Assembly: GCA_016791045.1 (NCBI GenBank)
Contig: JAEUNO010000005.1
Coordinates: 84,823-148,822, forward strand
Direction of reading: 5' to 3'
DNA: 64,000 nucleotides
Origin: Methyloversatilis sp.
GTDB taxonomy: Bacteria > Pseudomonadota > Gammaproteobacteria > Burkholderiales > Rhodocyclaceae
In this document: piece after piece, positions 1 to 46,596 of the stretch
Layout of the letters: every line of letters begins with the position of its first letter
Position numbering within the stretch: the stretch's first letter is position 1
Translations under genes and position numbers: made by a program
Notes under the pieces: model-generated
The model's input: the letters and a program-made list of their open reading frames with translations, nothing else
The model's database searches: none
What the model was told of the DNA's origin: nothing

Positions 1-490
1 GTGCCGCATCCGGCGACAGCAAGCCGGGTGCGATGGACGCCGCCACGACACCGACCAGCGCACAACCCTCGCGCACCGCGACCAGCCGGGTGCCGAGGGC
101 CGGCGTCGCCGACAGTTCGGCACCCCAGGCGTAATAGTTGATGCTGCTGATGCTGTAACCGGCATAGACCAGCGCCAGCGCACCGATCAGCCAGAACACC
201 GGGTCGGTGCCTTCGGCCGGACGCACCAGTGCGAGCAGCCCGAGCGCCAGCGGCAGCAAGCCCATCCACACGAGGCGACGACGGCCCCGCGCGCGATCAC
301 TGGCGGCGCCGATCAGCGGGTCGACCAGGGCGTCCAGCAGACGCGCTGCGAACAGCACGATGCCGAGCACGGTCAGCGATACACCGAAGCTGTCGGCGTA
401 CAGCTTCGGAATGTGTACGTAGATGGGCAGTGCCGCGGCGGCCAGCGGCGCGCCGAGCACGCCATAGGCAAACAGGCGCGCCGGTCTCAA
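1..490 (-). CDS. MFS transporter, GPH/sugar-cation symporter type (partial)
   Basis: Only the N-terminal ~163 residues are in the window; the gene runs off the left edge. The visible protein is a series of Leu/Ala-rich membrane helices. Around residues 51-71 it has LLDALVDPLIGAASDRARG followed by more Arg, the acidic helix and basic cytoplasmic loop typical of the GPH (MFS_2) branch of major facilitators. I start it at a TTG whose last bases overlap the TGA of the upstream gene (TTGA), the same stop/start coupling used by the other genes of this leftward cluster. It is therefore probably the distal gene of the lipid operon. The substrate cannot be read from sequence; a lipid-related or sugar substrate are both possible. 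Confidence 0.75.
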   Translation of the reverse strand, partial: MRPARLFAYGVLGAPLAAAALPIYVHIPKLYADSFGVSLTVLGIVLFAARLLDALVDPLIGAASDRARGRRRLVWMGLLPLALGLLALVRPAEGTDPVFWLIGALALVYAGYSISSINYYAWGAELSATPALGTRLVAVREGCALVGVVAASIAPGLLSPDAA

Positions 491-1011
491 CTGGAAGGGA
501 GCGATTCGGCCAGCAGACGGGCGCGCAGCTTCGGCTCGCGGGTGCGGGCGTCAAGCCAGATGGCGAAGAAGGCATCGGACAGCGCCCTGTCTTCGATGGC
601 CGGCAGTTCTGCGCCCTGATGGAAGAAGCGCGCGCTGCCGTCCGGCATCTTCACGCCGGTCAGCACATCGCCTTCCTTCACGTCGGGAAACACACCCGTC
701 AGGATGTCCTTCCAGCGAGCCAGACGCTTCTTGTCGCGCTCGCCCAGCCGCTTGATCTCGTCGATGCTGGCTTCCGCCAGCTTGTAGCCGTCGAACGAAC
801 GCGCATAGCGGATGCTCAGCGCAAAACCGCCGTCCGGCGAATACGTGCCGCCGCTGGCCCACAGCGAGGCGTCGTACAGCTTGAAGCCGAACCAGCGCAT
901 TTCACCCTTGCCGAGCGGCTTCAGGTCGGGCAGTACGTCGCCGGCCCCCGCCAGAGGCTGGGCGGAAGCGATGCCGGCGACCATCAACAACAAGGCAAGC
1001 ATTCGGCGCAT
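487..1011 (-). CDS. Chalcone isomerase-like secreted protein
   Basis: This is a 174-residue protein with an N-terminal signal peptide (MRRMLALLLMVAGIASAQ). The body resembles the bacterial chalcone-isomerase-like family: a G-x-x-x-x-R-W-F-G-F-K-L-Y-D-A-S-L-W stretch near residues 35-52 and an R-Y-A-R segment after it. In plants this fold isomerises flavonoids or binds fatty acids. The bacterial secreted members are of unknown function and fatty-acid binding is a reasonable guess. Its ATG overlaps the TGA of the Cfa-like gene upstream, so it is translationally coupled to the lipid-modification genes. The initiating Met could also be the fourth residue. Confidence 0.8.
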   Translation of the reverse strand: MRRMLALLLMVAGIASAQPLAGAGDVLPDLKPLGKGEMRWFGFKLYDASLWASGGTYSPDGGFALSIRYARSFDGYKLAEASIDEIKRLGERDKKRLARWKDILTGVFPDVKEGDVLTGVKMPDGSARFFHQGAELPAIEDRALSDAFFAIWLDARTREPKLRARLLAESLPSS

Positions 1012-2225
1012 CAGGTTTTCTCCAGATGAAATTGATGAACGTCGATCGAACCGGCACGGAAACCGGCTTCGCAATACGCCAGATAGAAGCGCCACAGCCG
1101 CTGGAAGCGACGATCGAAACCCAGCGCGCGCAAGGCGTCGGTGCGCGCTTCGAAGGTGGCGCGCCAGCGTGCCAGCGTCAGGGCGTAATCAAGCCCGAAG
1201 CGGAAATCGTCGCGCACCTGCAAGCCGACTTTTTCCGCCTGCTGCACGAACACGCTGGGCGAGGGCAACATGCCGCCCGGGAAAATATACTGCTGGATGA
1301 AGTCAGTACCTTTACGGTAACGCGCAAACAGGTCGTCGGCGATGCTGATCGTCTGGATCACCGCCTGCCCGCCGGACGCCAGCAGGCTGTCGAGCCTGGC
1401 GAAATAGGTCGGCCACCAGCGCTCGCCGACGGCTTCGAGCATTTCGATCGATACGATGTGCGACGCCTTGCCGCGCAGATCCCGGTAATCACGCAATTCG
1501 CAGGTCGCGCGGTCGGCGTAGCCGCCGCGCTCGGCGCGCTGCCGTGCCCACGCAAGCTGTGCGGGAGACAGGGTCACACCATGCACGCGCGCACCGGCAC
1601 GCTGCGCCGCGACTTCTGCAAACCCCCCCCAGCCGCAACCGATCTCGATCACGCTGTCGTCGGCCGACAAACCCATCACGCGCGCGATGCGCTGGTACTT
1701 GGCGAGCTGCGCCGTTTCCAGGTCACGTCGGGTATCGCCCTCATACAGCGCGCTCGAATAGGTCATGCTGCCGTCCAGCCACAGACCGTAGAACTCGTTG
1801 CCCAGATCGTAGTGGGCGACGATGTTCCGGCGGCTGCCTCGTCGTGTGTTCGCACGGCCAAGGTGACGCATGCGCGCAAACACCAGCGCCAGCAGGTTGC
1901 CGTGCACCGCGCGCTGCAACGCGTCGCGGTTCTGCGCGAACAGCGTCAGCACGCGGCCGAGTTCGTCGGTGTCCCACAGGCCGTCGAACCAGGCTTCGCC
2001 GAGGCCGATGTCGCCGCGTGCGATCACGCGGTCGAACACGCCCCAGTCGAGGACGCGCATTTCGACCGGCTCGCCGCGGCCGCCGAAAGACACCATTTCG
2101 CCATCCGGCAGCGACATCATCAGCCAGCCGTGCTCGATGCGCTCAAGCAGTTTGAATACATGGCGCGCGGCCGATGGAAGCTTTCCGTGTCGCGCAAGCG
2201 CGAGCATCGCATCCGGTTGGTTCAT
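1011..2225 (-). CDS. Cyclopropane-fatty-acid synthase family methyltransferase
   Basis: The protein is 404 residues, close to the usual length of Cfa-type enzymes. The N-terminal ~120 residues form the variable lipid-side domain; the SAM-binding motif VIEIGCGWGG lies at about residues 192-201. EMLEAVG (about 261-267) is the conserved acidic segment that lines the active site in Cfa enzymes. The family transfers a methyl or methylene group from SAM to unsaturated acyl chains in membrane phospholipids. Association with an FAD oxidoreductase and a DUF1365 protein rather than standing alone suggests the stress-regulated branch, to which the UfaM methylase of Rhodobacter furan fatty acid synthesis belongs; that assignment is inference. 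Both ends overlap neighbouring genes by stop/start coupling. Confidence 0.88.
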   Translation of the reverse strand: MNQPDAMLALARHGKLPSAARHVFKLLERIEHGWLMMSLPDGEMVSFGGRGEPVEMRVLDWGVFDRVIARGDIGLGEAWFDGLWDTDELGRVLTLFAQNRDALQRAVHGNLLALVFARMRHLGRANTRRGSRRNIVAHYDLGNEFYGLWLDGSMTYSSALYEGDTRRDLETAQLAKYQRIARVMGLSADDSVIEIGCGWGGFAEVAAQRAGARVHGVTLSPAQLAWARQRAERGGYADRATCELRDYRDLRGKASHIVSIEMLEAVGERWWPTYFARLDSLLASGGQAVIQTISIADDLFARYRKGTDFIQQYIFPGGMLPSPSVFVQQAEKVGLQVRDDFRFGLDYALTLARWRATFEARTDALRALGFDRRFQRLWRFYLAYCEAGFRAGSIDVHQFHLEKT

Positions 2226-2992
2226 CGGGTCAATTCCTGTACTGGAGGAGCCGGTTTTCTGAAAAAGGGCACATTCGCCCGCCACAGGTGAAAAGCCTGG
2301 ATGTGTATGCGCGCAATCACACCCAGCGTCATCAGCGGGAAAGCCGCCAGCGCACGCCACGCGACAGCACGACTCATCGGCACGGCGCGCCCTGAGACAC
2401 GGGTACGCAGCTGCCGTTCCGCGCCTTCGAAATAATCGATCGCCACCGCATGCTGGCTGCCGCGCTGGTCGAACCGGAAGCGGTAGCGACCGCTGACCGG
2501 AAAGAAGGGCGACACGTGAAACACCTTGCGTGTCTCCAGCCATTCGCCGTTCAGGATGGGCCGGCGGTCGTCATGCGACACCAGGTAGGCATGGCGTTCG
2601 CCGAAGGTGTTGCTCACCTCGCACAGCACGGCGCGCAAGGCACCGCCCGCGTCGTGACAGAACCAGAAGCTGACCGGGTTGAACACATAGCCGAACAGCC
2701 GCGGCATGGTTTGCAGCACCACGTCTCCGTCAACGCCGGCCAGCCCCTCCTGCGCCAGCAATGCGCGTATCCACGGCAGCGGATGCGATCCGTCGCGGGC
2801 GCCGTGGTCGCGGTAGTGCAACGACAACGGTGCCCAGCGGTTCAGCGCCAGCATCGGAATTTTTGATGCGCCCAGCGTATCGAGACGAAAGCGCATGAAA
2901 AACAACTGATAGGCGAAGCGACGACGAACCCGTGCGGTCCGCTCGTGCATCACCGCGCCGCGGCACAGGCTGACATCGCTGACGGCCCTCAT
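2222..2992 (-). CDS. DUF1365 domain-containing protein
   Basis: This 256-residue protein matches the DUF1365 family, shown by the early RRRFAYQLFFMRFRLDTL stretch and the central PRLFGYVFNPVSFWFCHD motif near residues 95-113. The family has no established biochemical role. It is nearly always found between an FAD-dependent amine-oxidase-like protein and a Cfa-family methylase, as here, so a role in modifying or handling acyl chains is likely. The start ATG overlaps the TGA of the FAD gene and the stop TGA overlaps the next ATG. Confidence 0.88.
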   Translation of the reverse strand: MRAVSDVSLCRGAVMHERTARVRRRFAYQLFFMRFRLDTLGASKIPMLALNRWAPLSLHYRDHGARDGSHPLPWIRALLAQEGLAGVDGDVVLQTMPRLFGYVFNPVSFWFCHDAGGALRAVLCEVSNTFGERHAYLVSHDDRRPILNGEWLETRKVFHVSPFFPVSGRYRFRFDQRGSQHAVAIDYFEGAERQLRTRVSGRAVPMSRAVAWRALAAFPLMTLGVIARIHIQAFHLWRANVPFFRKPAPPVQELTR

Positions 2993-4272
2993 GCAGCCAG
3001 CACCGGCTCACTGCGTTGCCAGGGCACGTCGGCACCGAGTTGCCGCGCCACGCGCACTGCGGATGACAGGCCGTCCTCGTGAAAACCGTAGCCCGTCCAG
3101 GCGCCGCAGTACCAGATACGATCGCGGCCCTGGATCTCCGGCAGCCGCTGCTGGGCATCGATCGCGGGACCATCGAACAGCGGGTGCGCGTACTCGATGC
3201 GTGCGATCACGCTGGCTGGATCAGGTTCTATGAACGGGTTCAGCGTCACCACGACAGGCTGTCGGAACGGCAGCGGCTGAAGGCGGTTCATCAGATAGGA
3301 CACGCTGACCGGCCGTTCGTCGGGCGCGCCTTCACCCGCCAGGTAATTCCACGCCGACCAGACGCGCCGGTTGCGCGGCAACAACCGTGTGTCGGTGTGC
3401 AGCACTGCATGATTGGGCTGATAGCGTATCGCACCGAGCAGTCTCCGTTCCGCTTGCGTCGCAGCGTCGCCAAGCAAGGCCAGCGACTCATCCGAGTGGC
3501 TGGCCATCACGATCTGATCGAAGCATTGAGACGCGTCGCCCGTATCGATCCATACGCCTTCTTCCGCCCGGCGCACACGGGTCACGGCCTCGCCACGCCG
3601 CACATCCGACAGCAATGCAGCCAGCTTTTTCACATACTCGCGCGAGCCGCCGCGCACGGTAAGCCACTGCGGCCGGTCATTCACGCGCAGCAACCCGTGG
3701 TTGTGGCAGAAGCGGGCAAACGTGGCGAGCGGGTAAGCCATCATCGTGCGCGTCGGGCAGGACCAGATCGCCGCCGCCATCGGCAGCAGATACCAGTCCC
3801 GGAAAGCCTCGCTGTAACGATGCTTGACCAGGAACTCGCCGAGCGACATATGTTCGGCGCTGCCATTGGCCGCCCGCTCGGTCACTTCGCTGTTGAAGCG
3901 CATGATGTCCTGCAGCATCCGCCAGAATCTCGGCCGGGCCAGGTTGGCCGGTTGGGCGAACACCGTAGCCAGACTGCTGCCGCTCCACTCGATGCCGGAG
4001 TCCTGCAGGCTGACGCCGAAACTCATTTCGCTGTCCGCAATGTCCACGCCGAGATGAGCGAACAGACCGCACAGGTGCGGATAGGTCGCCCTGTTGAACA
4101 CAATGAAGCCGGTGTCGACCGGGTGGCGTACGCCACCCAGTTCGACATCCAGCGTGTTCGAGTGGCCGCCAAGGCGACCGTTCTGTTCGAACAGCGTGAC
4201 CTGGTGTTCACGCGACAGCAGCCATGCGGCTGCGAGTCCGGAGATTCCGGAACCCACGACTGCAATCCTCAT
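2989..4272 (-). CDS. FAD-dependent oxidoreductase (amine-oxidase fold)
   Basis: This 427-residue flavoprotein opens with the dinucleotide motif VVGSGISGLAAAW (residues 5-17) and the R-L-G-G-H-S-N-T segment typical of the amine-oxidase/phytoene-desaturase fold. It ends with WYCGAWTGYGFHEDGLSSA, the C-terminal FAD-contact region. Homologues beside Cfa-type methylases include the Rhodobacter desaturase UfaD, which oxidises a methylated acyl chain; whether this protein is that enzyme or a relative is not decided by sequence alone. The start has a good ribosome site (AGGAG). A 105-bp gap separates it from the glutathione peroxidase stop. That gap holds two TTGACAC motifs on the + strand, so an extra promoter is possible. 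Confidence 0.88.
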   Translation of the reverse strand: MRIAVVGSGISGLAAAWLLSREHQVTLFEQNGRLGGHSNTLDVELGGVRHPVDTGFIVFNRATYPHLCGLFAHLGVDIADSEMSFGVSLQDSGIEWSGSSLATVFAQPANLARPRFWRMLQDIMRFNSEVTERAANGSAEHMSLGEFLVKHRYSEAFRDWYLLPMAAAIWSCPTRTMMAYPLATFARFCHNHGLLRVNDRPQWLTVRGGSREYVKKLAALLSDVRRGEAVTRVRRAEEGVWIDTGDASQCFDQIVMASHSDESLALLGDAATQAERRLLGAIRYQPNHAVLHTDTRLLPRNRRVWSAWNYLAGEGAPDERPVSVSYLMNRLQPLPFRQPVVVTLNPFIEPDPASVIARIEYAHPLFDGPAIDAQQRLPEIQGRDRIWYCGAWTGYGFHEDGLSSAVRVARQLGADVPWQRSEPVLAA

Positions 4273-4377: not shown

Positions 4378-4926
4378 TCAGCGCGCCAGCGCAGCCTCTA
4401 TCGCAGCGATCATTTCTGGCGATTCCGGCGCCACATTGCTAGGAAACGACGTGATCGTGCTGCCATCTCTCGCGATCAGGTACTTGTGGAAATTCCATCC
4501 AGGTTCGACACCCGTCAGGCGCGTGAGGTCTGCGTAAAACGGATGACGCTGCGCCCCTCTCACGGCCGTCTTCGAGAACATCGGAAACTTGACGCCGTAG
4601 GTCATGCTGCAGAACTCCGCGATGTCCTTGTCGCTACCCGGCTCCTGATTGCCGAAATCGTTCGACGGAAAACCGAGCACGGTGAGGCCGCGCGCACCGA
4701 AGCGCGCCTGCAGTTTTTCCAGCCCTTCGTACTGCCGGGTGAAACCACAGCGGCTCGCGGTATTGACGACCAGCAGCACCCTGCCGCTGAACTCGCACAG
4801 TGATTTCTGCTTGCCGTCGAGCAGCCCGGGCAGCGAACGGTCAAGCAGGGTCGGGCAGGATTCGGCCATGGCAGCTCCGGTCGTCAATGTGAGGACGGCG
4901 GCGAACAGCCAGTCAGCGCGACGCAC
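4378..4926 (-). CDS. Secreted glutathione peroxidase
   Basis: The protein is 182 residues: an N-terminal signal peptide (ending near GAAMAES) followed by a complete glutathione-peroxidase domain. The peroxidatic cysteine is Cys60 in VNTASRCGFT. The second signature GFPSNDFGNQEPG supplies the conserved Gln, and EPGWNFHKYL supplies the Trp/Asn. It should reduce hydroperoxides, probably lipid peroxides, on the periplasmic side, using thioredoxin-like or other donors. It overlaps the end of the small secreted protein upstream by 14 bp, so the two are co-translated. Its place ahead of the lipid-modification genes fits singlet-oxygen or light stress defence. Confidence 0.92.
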   Translation of the reverse strand: MRRADWLFAAVLTLTTGAAMAESCPTLLDRSLPGLLDGKQKSLCEFSGRVLLVVNTASRCGFTRQYEGLEKLQARFGARGLTVLGFPSNDFGNQEPGSDKDIAEFCSMTYGVKFPMFSKTAVRGAQRHPFYADLTRLTGVEPGWNFHKYLIARDGSTITSFPSNVAPESPEMIAAIEAALAR

Positions 4927-5185
4927 GGCTGGGCTCGCAACAGCGCACCGTCGTTTCGGAAAACGCCGGTGGCAGGAAATGGATGCCCGTCACCGCGCGA
5001 TGCAGGTGAATGAGCGTTTCATTGGGCGTCAGCTTGTGCGCGGCAACTGCCTGGACGGCCAGCGCAACCTGCGCAGGCTTTGCCGCGGCCGACGGCTCGT
5101 CCGCACCCGGCATGCGTGCCAGACACGCACTGCTGAAGGCACCCATTCCGGCGAAAAACAAACCCGCGACAGCAGCGTGCTTCAT
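4913..5185 (-). CDS. Small secreted protein of unknown function, first gene of the operon
   Basis: This 90-residue protein begins MKHAAVAGLFFAGMGAFSSA, a clear signal peptide, then an Ala-rich linker. It is followed by a conserved-looking core (TPNETLIHLHRAVTGIHFLPP) and a C-terminal Cys-Cys pair (VRCCEPS). I do not recognise a family. It is supported by its position: a strong promoter points into it, and its end overlaps the glutathione peroxidase start by 14 bp. It lies directly downstream of the palindromic operator, so it is expected to be the most strongly regulated member of the cluster. A His-x-His and two Cys could bind a metal or heme, but this is speculation. Confidence 0.6.
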   Translation of the reverse strand: MKHAAVAGLFFAGMGAFSSACLARMPGADEPSAAAKPAQVALAVQAVAAHKLTPNETLIHLHRAVTGIHFLPPAFSETTVRCCEPSRASR

Positions 5186-5199
5186 GACTGACCCCCCAA

Positions 5200-5216
5200 T
5201 TTTGTCCTGGACAAAA
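5200..5216. promoter_or_regulatory. Palindromic operator site 1 (TTTTGTCC-T-GGACAAAA)
   Basis: A perfect inverted repeat with 8-bp arms around one central base lies between the divergent small secreted protein and the MerR gene. It overlaps the proposed -35 (TGGACA, 5208-5213) of the rightward promoter and lies just downstream of the leftward start point. It shares the core TTGTCC/GGACAA with site 2, so both are probably bound by the adjacent B12-binding MerR protein. Confidence 0.7.
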
Positions 5217-5236
5217 CCATCTATGGCTCTTAATCT
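5208..5236 (+). promoter_or_regulatory. Candidate promoter of the MerR gene
   Basis: TGGACA (5208-5213) and TAATCT (5231-5236) are 17 bp apart and point toward the regulator. The -35 lies inside palindrome 1 and palindrome 2 lies in the leader next to the start codon, which implies autoregulation. Confidence 0.4.
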
Positions 5237-5260
5237 AGGGCGCATTGAACGCCGTGTCAA
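5232..5260 (-). promoter_or_regulatory. Candidate promoter of the leftward lipid/peroxidase operon
   Basis: On the minus strand a perfect TTGACA (5260-5255) is followed after exactly 17 bp by TAGATT (5237-5232). Palindrome 2 ends 4 bp upstream of the -35 and palindrome 1 lies about 10-25 bp downstream of the expected start point. The promoter is therefore bracketed by the two sites. Confidence 0.6.
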
Positions 5261-5264
5261 TGGT

Positions 5265-5277
5265 TTGTCCAGGACAA
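5265..5277. promoter_or_regulatory. Palindromic operator site 2 (TTGTCC-A-GGACAA)
   Basis: A perfect 6-bp-arm inverted repeat around one central base ends 1 bp before the MerR start codon. Its centre is 63 bp from that of site 1, about six helical turns, so two regulator dimers or tetramer halves would face the same side of the DNA. It also contains the AGGA that would serve as the ribosome site. Confidence 0.7.
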
Positions 5278-5278
5278 T

Positions 5279-6229
5279 ATGAAACATGATGCCAACGGCT
5301 TCGGTCGAATGACGATCAGCGCCGTCGAACGCGAAACAGGCCTTCCCAAAGACACGTTGCGCGTGTGGGAAAGGCGTTACGGATTTCCTCAGCCGGTCCG
5401 CGACGAAGCGGGCGAGCGTCTGTATACGCTGGAAGACGTCAATCGGTTGCGCCTGATCCGCAGATTGATCGACCAGGGCTGGCGACCGGGCAAGCTGCTG
5501 GCCGCCAGCGAGGCGGAGCTGCAGCGGATCGTCGAGGCAGAACGTGGCGCAGGCGCGCCAGTGAGGCCGGATGGTGGCGTGCCGACCGATGAGGTACTCG
5601 CGGCGATACGGCGCCACGATGTACCCGCACTGCGCGACCTGTTCCAGCGCAGCCTGCTCGAACGGGGACTGCAGGCCCTGGTGTCGGATCTGGTGGCGCC
5701 GCTCAACGTGGTCATCGGCGAAGCCTGGATACGCGGCGAACTGGGCGTTCCGGAAGAACACTTCTATACCGAGCAGGTGCAGAGCTTTCTGCGCGGCACC
5801 CTCGCCAGTTACACCCGGCCGGCCGCGCCGCCGCGCGTCCTGCTCACCACACTGCCGGAAGAGGAACATGGCCTCGGTTTACTGATGGTGGAGGTGATGC
5901 TGGCGTCAGAAGGCGCGCAATGCTGTTCGCTCGGGCCCCGCATGCCGCTGACCGACATCCGCACATCGGCATTGACCTCGGCAGCCGACATCGTGGCGCT
6001 CTCCTTCAGCGCCGCTTATCCGCTGCGCCAGGCACTCGCCGGCGTTCGTACCCTGCGCGATTCCCTGCCGGACACGGTGGACATCTGGGTTGGTGGCGCG
6101 GGCGCGCACGAGCGACTGGCGGGCATCCCGGGCGTATCCGTCATCGGTGCCATCCGCACCGTCCCCGACGCATTGGCCGAGTGGCGTGCGGCCCGGCTGC
6201 CGGCTGCATCCGTCGCCGCCCTCAACTGA
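5279..6229 (+). CDS. MerR-family regulator with cobalamin-binding domain (CarH/LitR type)
   Basis: The protein is 316 residues. Residues ~11-80 are a MerR winged helix (ISAVERETGLPKDTLRVWERRYGFPQP). They are followed by a helical cap domain and a B12-binding Rossmann domain. Trp150 and Glu160-His161 reproduce the Trp, Glu and His that contact the upper face of adenosylcobalamin in CarH, with the same 10-residue spacing. His197 in EEHGLG is the ExHxxG lower-ligand histidine. CarH/LitR proteins bind DNA in the dark as B12-bound oligomers and release it in light. All the key residues are present, so I predict a photosensor rather than only a B12 sensor. It is divergent from the lipid/peroxidase operon, with paired palindromes between. 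Confidence 0.9.
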   Translation: MKHDANGFGRMTISAVERETGLPKDTLRVWERRYGFPQPVRDEAGERLYTLEDVNRLRLIRRLIDQGWRPGKLLAASEAELQRIVEAERGAGAPVRPDGGVPTDEVLAAIRRHDVPALRDLFQRSLLERGLQALVSDLVAPLNVVIGEAWIRGELGVPEEHFYTEQVQSFLRGTLASYTRPAAPPRVLLTTLPEEEHGLGLLMVEVMLASEGAQCCSLGPRMPLTDIRTSALTSAADIVALSFSAAYPLRQALAGVRTLRDSLPDTVDIWVGGAGAHERLAGIPGVSVIGAIRTVPDALAEWRAARLPAASVAALN

Positions 6230-6445: not shown

Positions 6446-7276
6446 ATGCTCTACCCCGAACTGTTCAGGTCACTCGAATCCGCCCGCTGGGACATGGACA
6501 AAGACGTGCCTTGGGACGGTTTCGATGCGTCGCTGCTGTCGGACGAACAGGCGCTGACCATCAAGATGAATGCCATCACCGAGTGGTCGGCGCTGCCGGC
6601 AACCGAAATGTTCCTGCGCGACAACCGCGACGACTCCGACTTCTGCGCCTTCATGTCGGTGTGGTTCTACGAGGAACAGAAGCATTCGCTGGTGCTGCTC
6701 GAATACCTGCGCCGCTTCCGGCCCGACCTGTCACCGACCGAACAGGAACTGCACGAAGTGCGCTTCGAGTTCGATCCCGCACCGGCACTGGAAACGCTGA
6801 TGCTGCACTTCTGCGGTGAAGTGCGGCTGACCCAGTGGTACCGCCGTGCGTCGGAATGGCACACCGAGCCGGTCATCAAGCATATTTATGGCCTGCTGTC
6901 GCGCGACGAGGCGCGGCACGGCGGGGCCTATCTGAAGTACATGAAGCGTGCGATCGAGCGCACCGGCGACACCGCGCGGGCAGCGTTTTCCAAAATCGGC
7001 ATGCTGATGGCGGCCAGCGGACGCGCCGGCAAGCCGCTGCATCCGACCAATCTGCACGTCAGCAAGACGCTGTATCCGCGCGACACCATCCAGTCCCGCC
7101 TGCCCGACCCTGACTGGCTGGAACACTGGCTGGACCAGCAGATCCGTTTCGACAAGGACTGCGAGGCGCGCGTCATCGGCGGCATCCTGCGCAATCTCAG
7201 TTCGCTGTTCGGCGAAAGTTTCAAGACCATCAGCGACCTGAACCGCTTCCGCAAGCAGTTCGCCACAGCAGCCTGA
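6446..7276 (+). CDS. Ferritin-like diiron protein, acyl-ACP desaturase-related
   Basis: This 276-residue helical protein has a full set of diiron carboxylate ligands: Glu46 (EWSALP), Glu77 and His80 in EEQKH, Glu125 (CGEVRL), and Glu155 and His158 in DEARH. The paired ExxH pattern is that of the soluble acyl-ACP desaturase/ferritin-like superfamily. It probably activates oxygen to desaturate or hydroxylate an acyl substrate, but the substrate is not evident. The 216-bp leader contains a small inverted repeat CTGAT-N7-ATCAG (6367-6383) and a TAAAAT -10-like box (6416-6421). It overlaps the next start by one base, so it is co-translated with rfaE2. Confidence 0.75.
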
Positions 7277-9935: not shown

Positions 9936-10494
9936 ATCGCGAGCAGGGCTCGCTCCTACAAAAACCGCGCCGCACCTGTAGGAGCGACCCCCGGTCGCGA
10001 TCGGCGCGTTGATCAAGCGCCGGCGCGTGTTCAGAGTACGCAATCGCGAGCAGGGCTCGCTCCTACAAAAACCGCGCCGCCCCTGTAGGAGCGACCCCCG
10101 GTCGCGATCGGTGCGTCGATCAAGCGCCGGCGCGTGTTCAGAGGGCGGGATCGCGAGCGGGGCTCGCTCCTACAAAAACCGCGCTGCCCCTGTAGGAGCG
10201 ACCCCCGGTCGCGATCGGTGCGTCGATCATGCGCCGGTGCGTATTCGGAGGGTGGAATCGCGAGCAGGGCTCGCTCCTACAAGAACCGCGCTGCCCCTGT
10301 AGGAGCGACCCCCGGTCGCGATTGGCGCGTTGATCGCGCGCCGGCGCGTGTTCAGAGGGTGGAATCGCGAGCGGGGCTCGCTCCTACAAGAACCACGCTG
10401 CCCCTGTAGGAGCGACCCCCGGTCGCGATTGGCGCGTTGATCGTGTGTCGCTGCCTGTTCGAAGGGCGGAATCGCGAGCGGGGCTCGCGCCTGC
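9936..10494. repeat. Tandem array of 107-bp REPIN-like units (array 1)
   Basis: Six copies of a left module (ATCGCGAGC...CTCGCTCCTAC; starts 9936, 10043, 10150, 10257, 10364, 10471) are spaced at exactly 107 bp; the last is degenerate. Five copies of an inverted right module (GTAGGAGCGACCCCCGGTCG plus CGAT; starts 9978, 10085, 10192, 10299, 10406) alternate with them. Left and right modules are near reverse complements, so each unit folds into a long hairpin. The linkers (CGGCGCGTTGATCAAGCGCC-type) are also conserved. The array fills the gap between two convergent genes; nothing else is seen in 9899-10566. Confidence 0.9.
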
Positions 10495-46078: not shown

Positions 46079-46145
46079 GCGGGCCGGATGACTGCGCGGC
46101 CGGACGTGTTGCCGGACACGCCACAGCGCGTGATCAGAGGGTGGA

Positions 46146-46596
46146 ATCGCGAGCGCGGCTCGCTCCTGCAGGAACCGCGCCGCCCGTGTAGGAGCGACCC
46201 CCGGTCGTGATCGGCGCGTCGATCGTGCGCCAGCGCGTGTTCGGAGGGTTGAATCGCGAGCGGGGCTCGCTCCTACAAAAACCGTGCCGCGCCTGTAGGA
46301 GCGACCCCCGGTCGCGAGCCGCGCGTCGATCGTGCGCTGGCGCGTGTTCGGAGGGTGGAATCGCGAGCGGGGCTCGCTCCTACAAGAACGTGCCTCCGCT
46401 GTAGGAGCGACCCCCGGTCGCGATCCGCGCGTCGATCGTGCGCCGGTGCGTGTTCGGAGGGTTGAATCGCGAGCGGGGCTCGGTCCTGCAAAAACCGTGC
46501 TGCCCCTGTAGGAGCGACCCCCGGTCGCGATCCGCGCGTTGATCAAGCACCGGCGCGTATTCGGAGGGCGGCATCGGCGAGCCGTGCTCGCCGAAT
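46146..46596. repeat. Tandem array of 107-bp REPIN-like units (array 2)
   Basis: Four left modules start at 46146, 46253, 46360 and 46466, with a degenerate fifth at 46573. Right modules start at 46188, 46295, 46401 and 46508. The period is 107 bp except one 106-bp step. The modules and linkers are the same as in the array at 9.9 kb, including the CGCGTGTTCGGAGGGT linker. It fills the gap between a methyltransferase and a convergent gene; nothing else is seen in 46079-46621. Confidence 0.9.

Follow-up and report, generated by a model that had tools for sequence, protein, structure and literature searches.

In the photoreceptor CarH of Thermus thermophilus (TtCarH), W131 and E141 contact the adenosyl group of the cofactor adenosylcobalamin (AdoCbl), and H132 ligates cobalt after photolysis, giving a bis-His state. 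The two best-known CarH operators consist of three or four tandem 11-bp repeats of the form nnnnTnnACAn, one of which lies over a promoter element (PMC8156234, PMC9304148). In Myxococcus xanthus, the operator comprises two inverted repeats, a perfect one preceding the -35 element and an imperfect one over it; the authors of that work hold that the direct and not the inverted repeats are recognised, and in the Sorangiineae and Nannocystineae there are apparently two operators for divergent promoters (PMC9304148). The Myxococcus protein CarA binds B12 without needing it (PMC8156234). Within the class II LitR proteins, PmlR2 of Pseudomonas mendocina acts in vitro as a repressor on the promoter of an operon of the ufaM-phrB region that is induced by light, with one operator located at the -35 element and another after the start point but before the start codon (PMC9758184).

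Here, we analysed a regulator of this kind in a stretch of 64,000 nucleotides from Methyloversatilis sp., called the window in the following, which is part of an assembly of 3.54 Mb in 47 contigs (92% complete). In protein comparisons, the best named relatives are Methyloversatilis, with identities of 92-93%. The regulator (5279..6229, plus strand) has 316 amino acids and shows the architecture of the LitR/CarH family in the broad sense, a MerR helix-turn-helix domain (Pfam MerR_1, 6e-16) followed by a B12-binding_2 (2e-8) and a B12-binding domain (7.5e-7; 29.5 bits, slightly below the Pfam cut-off of 32.1). The alignment to CarH/LitR proteins proposed with the original prediction paired residues 8-287 with TtCarH (PDB 5c8d, E 2e-34), the closest relative of solved structure. 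An AlphaFold model, built from a 10-sequence alignment (pLDDT 82, pTM 0.66), likewise retrieved CarH as the first Foldseek match (E 4e-20). Its cobalamin domain superimposes on CarH with about 2.5 A over 199 columns and the full-length matches with an rmsd of about 15-20 A, which is expected if the placement of the domains differs between model and CarH. With 142.3 bits, the protein does not reach the cut-off of 400 of the NCBIfam CarH equivalog NF052513; since it also carries another residue at the H132 position, we refrain from classing it as a CarH equivalog. Our best reading is a LitR/CarH-family repressor which is probably an AdoCbl photoreceptor. More precisely, we put a probability of roughly 0.68 on the reading that both promoters of the locus are repressed in the dark by an AdoCbl-bound oligomer on one palindrome, Pal1, and on the array at a second, Pal2, and released by light. 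Its premises (CarH-type domain order, pocket, sites, promoter geometry, conservation and gene content) are read from sequence, and from them we infer which cofactor is used, that light is sensed, that an oligomer binds and loops the DNA, and what the operon produces.

For comparative analysis, 196 homologous loci were examined, of which 169 remained after dropping those more than 80% identical. The 146 loci with at least 38% identity are referred to as relatives and the 23 below as distant homologues, a line that was set after the first motif result. The collection covered a part of the homologues listed, with 87 taken as loci and 99 hand-picked from protein lists across genera, also after the first motif result; L002-L005 and L201 were excluded (weak hit, duplicates or pattern locus). 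Homologues at E 1e-20 or better occurred in 133 of the 399 sampled genomes of the order, the window's own included and some of them distant.

The original prediction of a B12 photoreceptor had pointed to Trp150, Glu160-His161 and His197 at CarH-like spacing, and these residues indeed align with W131, E141, H142 and H177 of TtCarH. GxxW, EH and the lower-ligand His are jointly kept in 143 of the 146 deduplicated relatives. The pocket residues therefore argue for AdoCbl as the cofactor, and the prediction stands as far as the CarH-type architecture and the intact cobalamin pocket are concerned. It has to be qualified at the position of H132, which is Ile151 in the regulator and His in a single one of the 146 relatives. 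As the histidine for bis-His ligation is replaced, the light step of the regulator cannot lead to the bis-His end state of TtCarH, and the release step should therefore be unlike that of TtCarH. A CarH/LitR branch that has the cobalamin pocket and lacks the His thought to drive tetramer release in light looks widespread. The published AdoCbl light signature comprises GxxW, EH, GxxH and GxxxP (PMC11796333). In the regulator, GxxW, EH and GxxxP are complete and GxxH retains its His; the motif set is incomplete because the Gly is replaced by Glu (E194). Among the 143 relatives with GxxW, EH and the His, the GxxH Gly is found in 39 and GxxxP in all 143. Cys215, which corresponds to Ala in TtCarH, is kept in 131 of the 146 relatives.

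Regarding cofactor supply, the window's assembly contains one cobalamin riboswitch, and neither of the adenosyltransferase families PF01923 and PF02572 had a match in this 92%-complete assembly. Of 18 same-family genomes tested, however, all but the window's own carry Cob(I)alamin adenosyltransferase PF01923 (17/18), and 12 carry PF02572. Because PF01923 is present in the 17 other genomes, we discarded the idea of a missing AdoCbl supply and regard the absence as probable incompleteness of the assembly.

The unit transcribed in divergent orientation on the minus strand starts with an ORF of 90 amino acids (4913..5185), taken from the ORF list, with a hydrophobic N-terminus as judged by eye and no Pfam family above the cut-off. 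It is followed by a glutathione-peroxidase-family protein (4378..4926; Pfam GSHPx, 1e-33), a UfaD-like NAD/FAD oxidoreductase (2989..4272; Pfam Amino_oxidase and NAD_binding_8, with phytoene-desaturase-family matches far under the cut-off), a DUF1365 protein of the UfaO family (2222..2992; Pfam DUF1365, 3e-74), a UfaM-like methyltransferase of the CMAS/cyclopropane-synthase type (1011..2225; Pfam CMAS, 2e-76) and, as the last gene, a chalcone-isomerase-like protein (487..1011; Pfam Chalcone_3, 2.7e-8). According to these coordinates, with the last two starts set by inspection, the last four genes run into one another, neighbouring starts and stops sharing one to four bases. UfaO contains DUF1365 and is linked to oxygen insertion into the furan ring, UfaD possesses an NAD-FAD domain, and UfaM belongs to the SAM methylases; together they produce a methylated furan fatty acid, which is lost on exposure to singlet oxygen (PMC7380195). 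The Pfam families of the three genes in the window match those of UfaD, UfaO and UfaM, a likeness at the level of family assignment, and the operon as a whole resembles a glutathione peroxidase gene combined with a set for furan-fatty-acid synthesis. In the 85 relatives whose upstream sequence covers at least 2.5 kb, matches were found to the UfaD-like protein in at least 60, to DUF1365 in at least 44, to the peroxidase in at least 28 and to the methyltransferase in at least 23, counts that are lower bounds because most loci end 3 kb upstream. All of these matches lie on the opposite strand, with zero same-strand cases for the UfaD-like protein. A few of the methyltransferase matches show no more than 27-28% identity and may represent other enzymes. 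The 90-aa ORF was matched in L011 alone. Downstream of the regulator, the window encodes a ferritin-like/diiron-type protein (6446-7276, plus strand; weak Pfam hits), and a match to it follows the regulator gene in at least 8 of the 85 relatives (64-94% identity in the aligned region), where the majority of loci extend about 300 bases beyond the gene.

Gene content and pocket bear on the question of what signal is sensed. A cobalamin-binding repressor of the same operon could respond to B12 status, oxygen or redox instead of light, and without H132 the photolysed protein would remain oligomeric and DNA-bound. The loss of H132 in 145 of the 146 relatives, the peroxidase-family protein in the operon and the conserved Cys215 are in line with such a sensor, as is the finding that the H132A variant of TtCarH stayed mostly tetrameric in light and thus mostly failed to dissociate, but an earlier study cited in the same paper saw H132A disassemble (PMC10442372). 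Furthermore, light still photolyses CtMerR, in which Arg occupies the H132 position (PMC11796333), the equivalents of the adenosyl-contacting residues W131 and E141 are kept, and the operon resembles genes known to be induced by light or singlet oxygen. We therefore consider a signal other than light unlikely, though it is the most serious competitor of the AdoCbl-dependent light switch. Clearly less probable is a repressor that works without B12, as CarA or class II LitR does, and that would be released by a partner such as a LOV photoreceptor or an antirepressor. Both precedents exist (PMC9758184, PMC8156234), and a light-induced operon of the ufaM region is likewise the target of a class II LitR (PMC9758184); the class II proteins, however, are without the second B12 domain that the regulator has at its C-terminus, and conservation of the pocket in nearly all relatives would be unexpected for a protein that does not need the cofactor. 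The class II site TGTACA-N12-TGTACA was found at none of the 169 loci (plus strand of each upstream stretch).

The sites assigned to the AdoCbl-dependent repressor lie in the 93-bp gap between the regulator gene and the divergent 90-aa ORF. As originally predicted, the gap holds two TTGTCC-N-GGACAA palindromes, and both are exact, conserved in relatives and 63 bp apart from start to start. Pal1 (TTGTCC-T-GGACAA) occupies 5202..5214 and Pal2 (TTGTCC-A-GGACAA) 5265..5277; Pal2 shares bases with the regulator gene's ribosome-binding site AGGA and ends 1 bp before its ATG. Exact copies expected in the gap by chance number 1.7e-5 under a first-order Markov model and 2e-6 from window statistics, and Pal1 and Pal2 are the only exact copies in the whole assembly. 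If up to two mismatches are allowed, the window total of 2 is at chance level (mean of shuffles 1.38; 39 of 100 reach 2), so that the evidence for the palindromes is carried by exactness, place and conservation. No description of a palindrome-type operator of this kind was found among the open-access literature matches listed.

One further site in the assembly, with a single mismatch, lies on contig C23 within an ORF that by eye encodes a response regulator. A wider regulon in the window's genome was not supported, as three places with at most one mismatch compare with 15 for the reversed-pattern control. The palindrome was also rarer than this control in 15 of 17 relatives' genomes and commoner in two (G489, 21 vs 10; G799, 9 vs 7), which may have a wider regulon. 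In G732, a genome of the same genus, no regulator match reached E 1e-20 (11 of the 18 candidates from a first look were scored), and five palindrome-like places with at most one mismatch are present. The photolyase/cryptochrome FAD domain is matched three times in the window's genome, by two neighbouring places (G000:C25:70944-73754) and by one at G000:C29:200839-201438; contigs C25 and C29 carry no palindrome with at most one mismatch. Elsewhere in the window, one 107-bp tandem repeat forms two arrays (9936-10492, 5.2 copies; 46126-46591, 4.4 copies), with inverted CGCTCCTAC / GTAGGAGCG words in each unit, by eye a REP-like element.

Between the palindromes, the promoter scan confirmed the minus-strand promoter TTGACA-17-TAGATT (P-minus, 5260-5232; 10/12), which is the only match in 5150-5320 and keeps its position in relatives. 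Pal1 lies downstream of P-minus, and Pal2 lies 4 bp upstream of its -35 element. It had further been proposed that the regulator's own -35 element is inside a palindrome. The sequence offers a candidate P-plus (TGGACA-17-TAATCT, 5208..5236, plus strand) whose -35 element TGGACA (5208-5213) does lie within Pal1 and whose -10 element TAATCT is at 5231-5236; the candidate is weak, however (8/12, below the scan threshold). In a raw count, the best plus-strand promoter-like site is found at the same Pal1 offset in 82 of 92 relatives with palindrome spacings of 62-64 or 74-76. The -10 elements of P-plus and P-minus overlap, and the predicted start points are near 5225 and 5243, placing Pal1 roughly at +11 to +23 in the transcript from the minus strand.

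Both the site and the pairing are widely conserved. A palindrome site scoring at least 9/12 was present in the 330 bases upstream of the regulator gene in 130 of the 146 relatives, compared to 37 of 146 equally long gene-body stretches, and a pair in 101 of 146 compared to 2 of 146 control stretches; 16 relatives had no upstream site at this threshold and 45 no pair. The spacings of the 101 pairs were 52-53 bp in 2 cases, 62-65 bp in 77 (57 of them exactly 63), 74-76 bp in 16 and 86 bp in one, so that 96 pairs fall into classes about 11 bp apart; the other five are 36, 58, 90, 116 and 122 bp. About 11 bp corresponds to one helical turn and also to one CarH repeat. Parsimony on a quick protein tree requires a minimum of 5 changes for the 63 and 74 classes and of 7 when the 52 class is included, and the latter is the useful number because spacings are inherited. 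In the 74-bp class, the distance from the -35 element of P-minus to Pal2 is 28 bases in 13 of 16 loci, as opposed to 17 bases in 57 of 76 loci of the 62-64 class, indicating that Pal2 has shifted outward by one 11-bp unit. Periods of 10, 10.5 and 11 give nearly equal phase strength (resultant 0.86-0.90, 99 spacings). The ladder would be explained by a bridged or looped complex on one face of the DNA or equally by the register of the repeats. The tie of the palindromes to this regulator family, the promoter between them and an autoregulatory geometry are supported by sequence. Many loci, among them L077, L081, L092 and L101, carry an additional palindrome of this type, the third, which lies at a variable distance of about 150-180 bp upstream of Pal1 and may serve another promoter; the window has none at 10/12 or better.

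A repeat structure of the CarH type is visible next to Pal2. On its minus strand, the window has two TnnACA repeats 11 bp apart (TGGACA at 5271, TTGACA at 5260) and not three; the second is the -35 element of P-minus, exactly 11 bp from the TGGACA of Pal2. In the 62-65-bp class, TnnACA peaks at offsets 6 and 17 (50 and 38 of 77 loci; mean of other offsets 0.25 loci), and in the 74-76-bp class at offsets 6, 17 and 28 (13, 7 and 10 of 16; mean of other offsets 0.07). Both repeats occur together in 24 of the 77 relatives of the former class and all three in 5 of the 16 of the latter. These offsets indicate that the Pal2 side is a short CarH-type array with an inverted-repeat cap, and that Pal1 is a second site past the promoters.

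The half-site TTGTCC had been suspected to represent a distinct specificity. Counted on both strands, T(G/A)GACA outnumbers T(G/A)TACA by 289 to 29 in the upstream stretches of the 146 relatives (46 and 13 in gene bodies), whereas the ratio is 7 to 53 in those of the 23 distant homologues (11 and 6 in gene bodies), the self-complementary TGTACA being counted twice. In 7 of the 23 distant homologues, TRTACA-type words stand 11 bp apart. The half-site thus differs from that of the distant homologues, but as it still fits the CarH core TnnACA, we regard it as a changed specificity inside the family and not as an unrelated one. It coincides with the -35 element. On the protein side, Lys24 in the presumed recognition helix is found in 143 of 146 relatives and in one of the 23 distant homologues. 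Asp42 is present in 138 relatives, with Thr at this position in 17 of the 23 distant homologues, and Glu46 in 115, with His in 18 of 23. Over all 169 loci, Lys24 and a site at 10/12 occur together in 119, Lys24 alone in 25, the site alone in 4 and neither in 21. Sites without Lys24 are seen at L044, L159, L172 and L022. L022, which at 36% identity is grouped with the distant homologues, has two 11/12 palindromes 42 bp apart; of the 23 distant homologues, 5 have a site at 9/12 and 2 at 10/12. The base-reading residue may be among these changes in recognition helix and wing. That another regulator binds the palindromes, which would merely adjoin this gene, is very improbable: binding is a prediction and 16 relatives are without a site at 9/12 or better, but the excess of sites over gene-body controls in relatives with the regulator, the position of the genome's sole exact pair beside its gene and the joint switch of half-site and recognition-helix types between relatives and distant homologues all argue against it.

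In the dark-repression reading that we favour, the AdoCbl-bound oligomer would occupy Pal1, Pal2 and the adjacent 11-bp repeat that forms the -35 element of P-minus. Pal1 and Pal2 would then be exposed on one face of the helix at a distance of six turns, straddling two overlapping promoters, and RNA polymerase would thereby be excluded from both the divergent operon and the regulator's own gene. In light, cleavage of the Co-C bond would cause the complex to lose its DNA affinity, and the genes for membrane photoprotection would be switched on. The main doubt about this reading comes from the missing H132; E194 in place of the GxxH Gly, the low NF052513 score, the unmatched adenosyltransferase, the relatives lacking a site or a pair and the B12 independence of CarA also weigh against it. 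As a broader picture, possible yet doubtful, we suggest a large betaproteobacterial branch of B12 photoreceptors in which the half-site changed from TRTACA to TRGACA and thereby merged the operator with the -35 element, phase-locked inverted sites hold a bidirectional promoter, a looped or bridged tetramer forms and release proceeds by a non-bis-His route. The change of half-site, for which few residues are candidates, amounts to a natural experiment on the specificity of MerR proteins and could provide an orthogonal green-light switch.

Compared with known systems, the regulator shares with TtCarH and class I LitR (PDB 5c8d, 5c8e) the domain order, the equivalents of W131, E141, H142 and H177, and the fold; with the TtCarH system it also shares the half-site core TnnACA, the 11-bp steps and a -35 element within one repeat (PMC8156234, PMC9304148). 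It differs from TtCarH by lacking H132 and the GxxH Gly and by Lys24 in the presumed recognition helix, its operator has two inverted repeats straddling promoters instead of three or four tandem repeats, and the targets are furan-fatty-acid-type instead of carotenoid genes. CtMerR, a CarH-like cobalamin domain, likewise has a cobalamin pocket without a bis-His partner; there the H132 position is Arg, here Ile, and CtMerR retains the GxxH Gly201 (PMC11796333). The operators of myxobacterial CarH and CarA are comparable in their plastic arrangement; their targets are carotenoid genes. At the locus described here, the conserved unit is the inverted repeat, with stepped spacing. Class II LitR proteins (PplR1-3 of Pseudomonas putida, PmlR1/2 of P. 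mendocina) are similar in being associated with light-induced ufaM and FAD oxidoreductase genes and in the placement of their two operators, and differ in the missing second B12 domain and, for PmlR2, in having a LOV partner (PMC9758184). In Rhodobacter sphaeroides, singlet oxygen and the loss of ChrR each elicit a response of the Ufa genes, and the portion of the published account considered here names no B12 regulator for them. The D-O-M gene order of the window, with the same enzyme families, is that of RPA2571-2570-2569 in Rhodopseudomonas palustris (PMC7380195).
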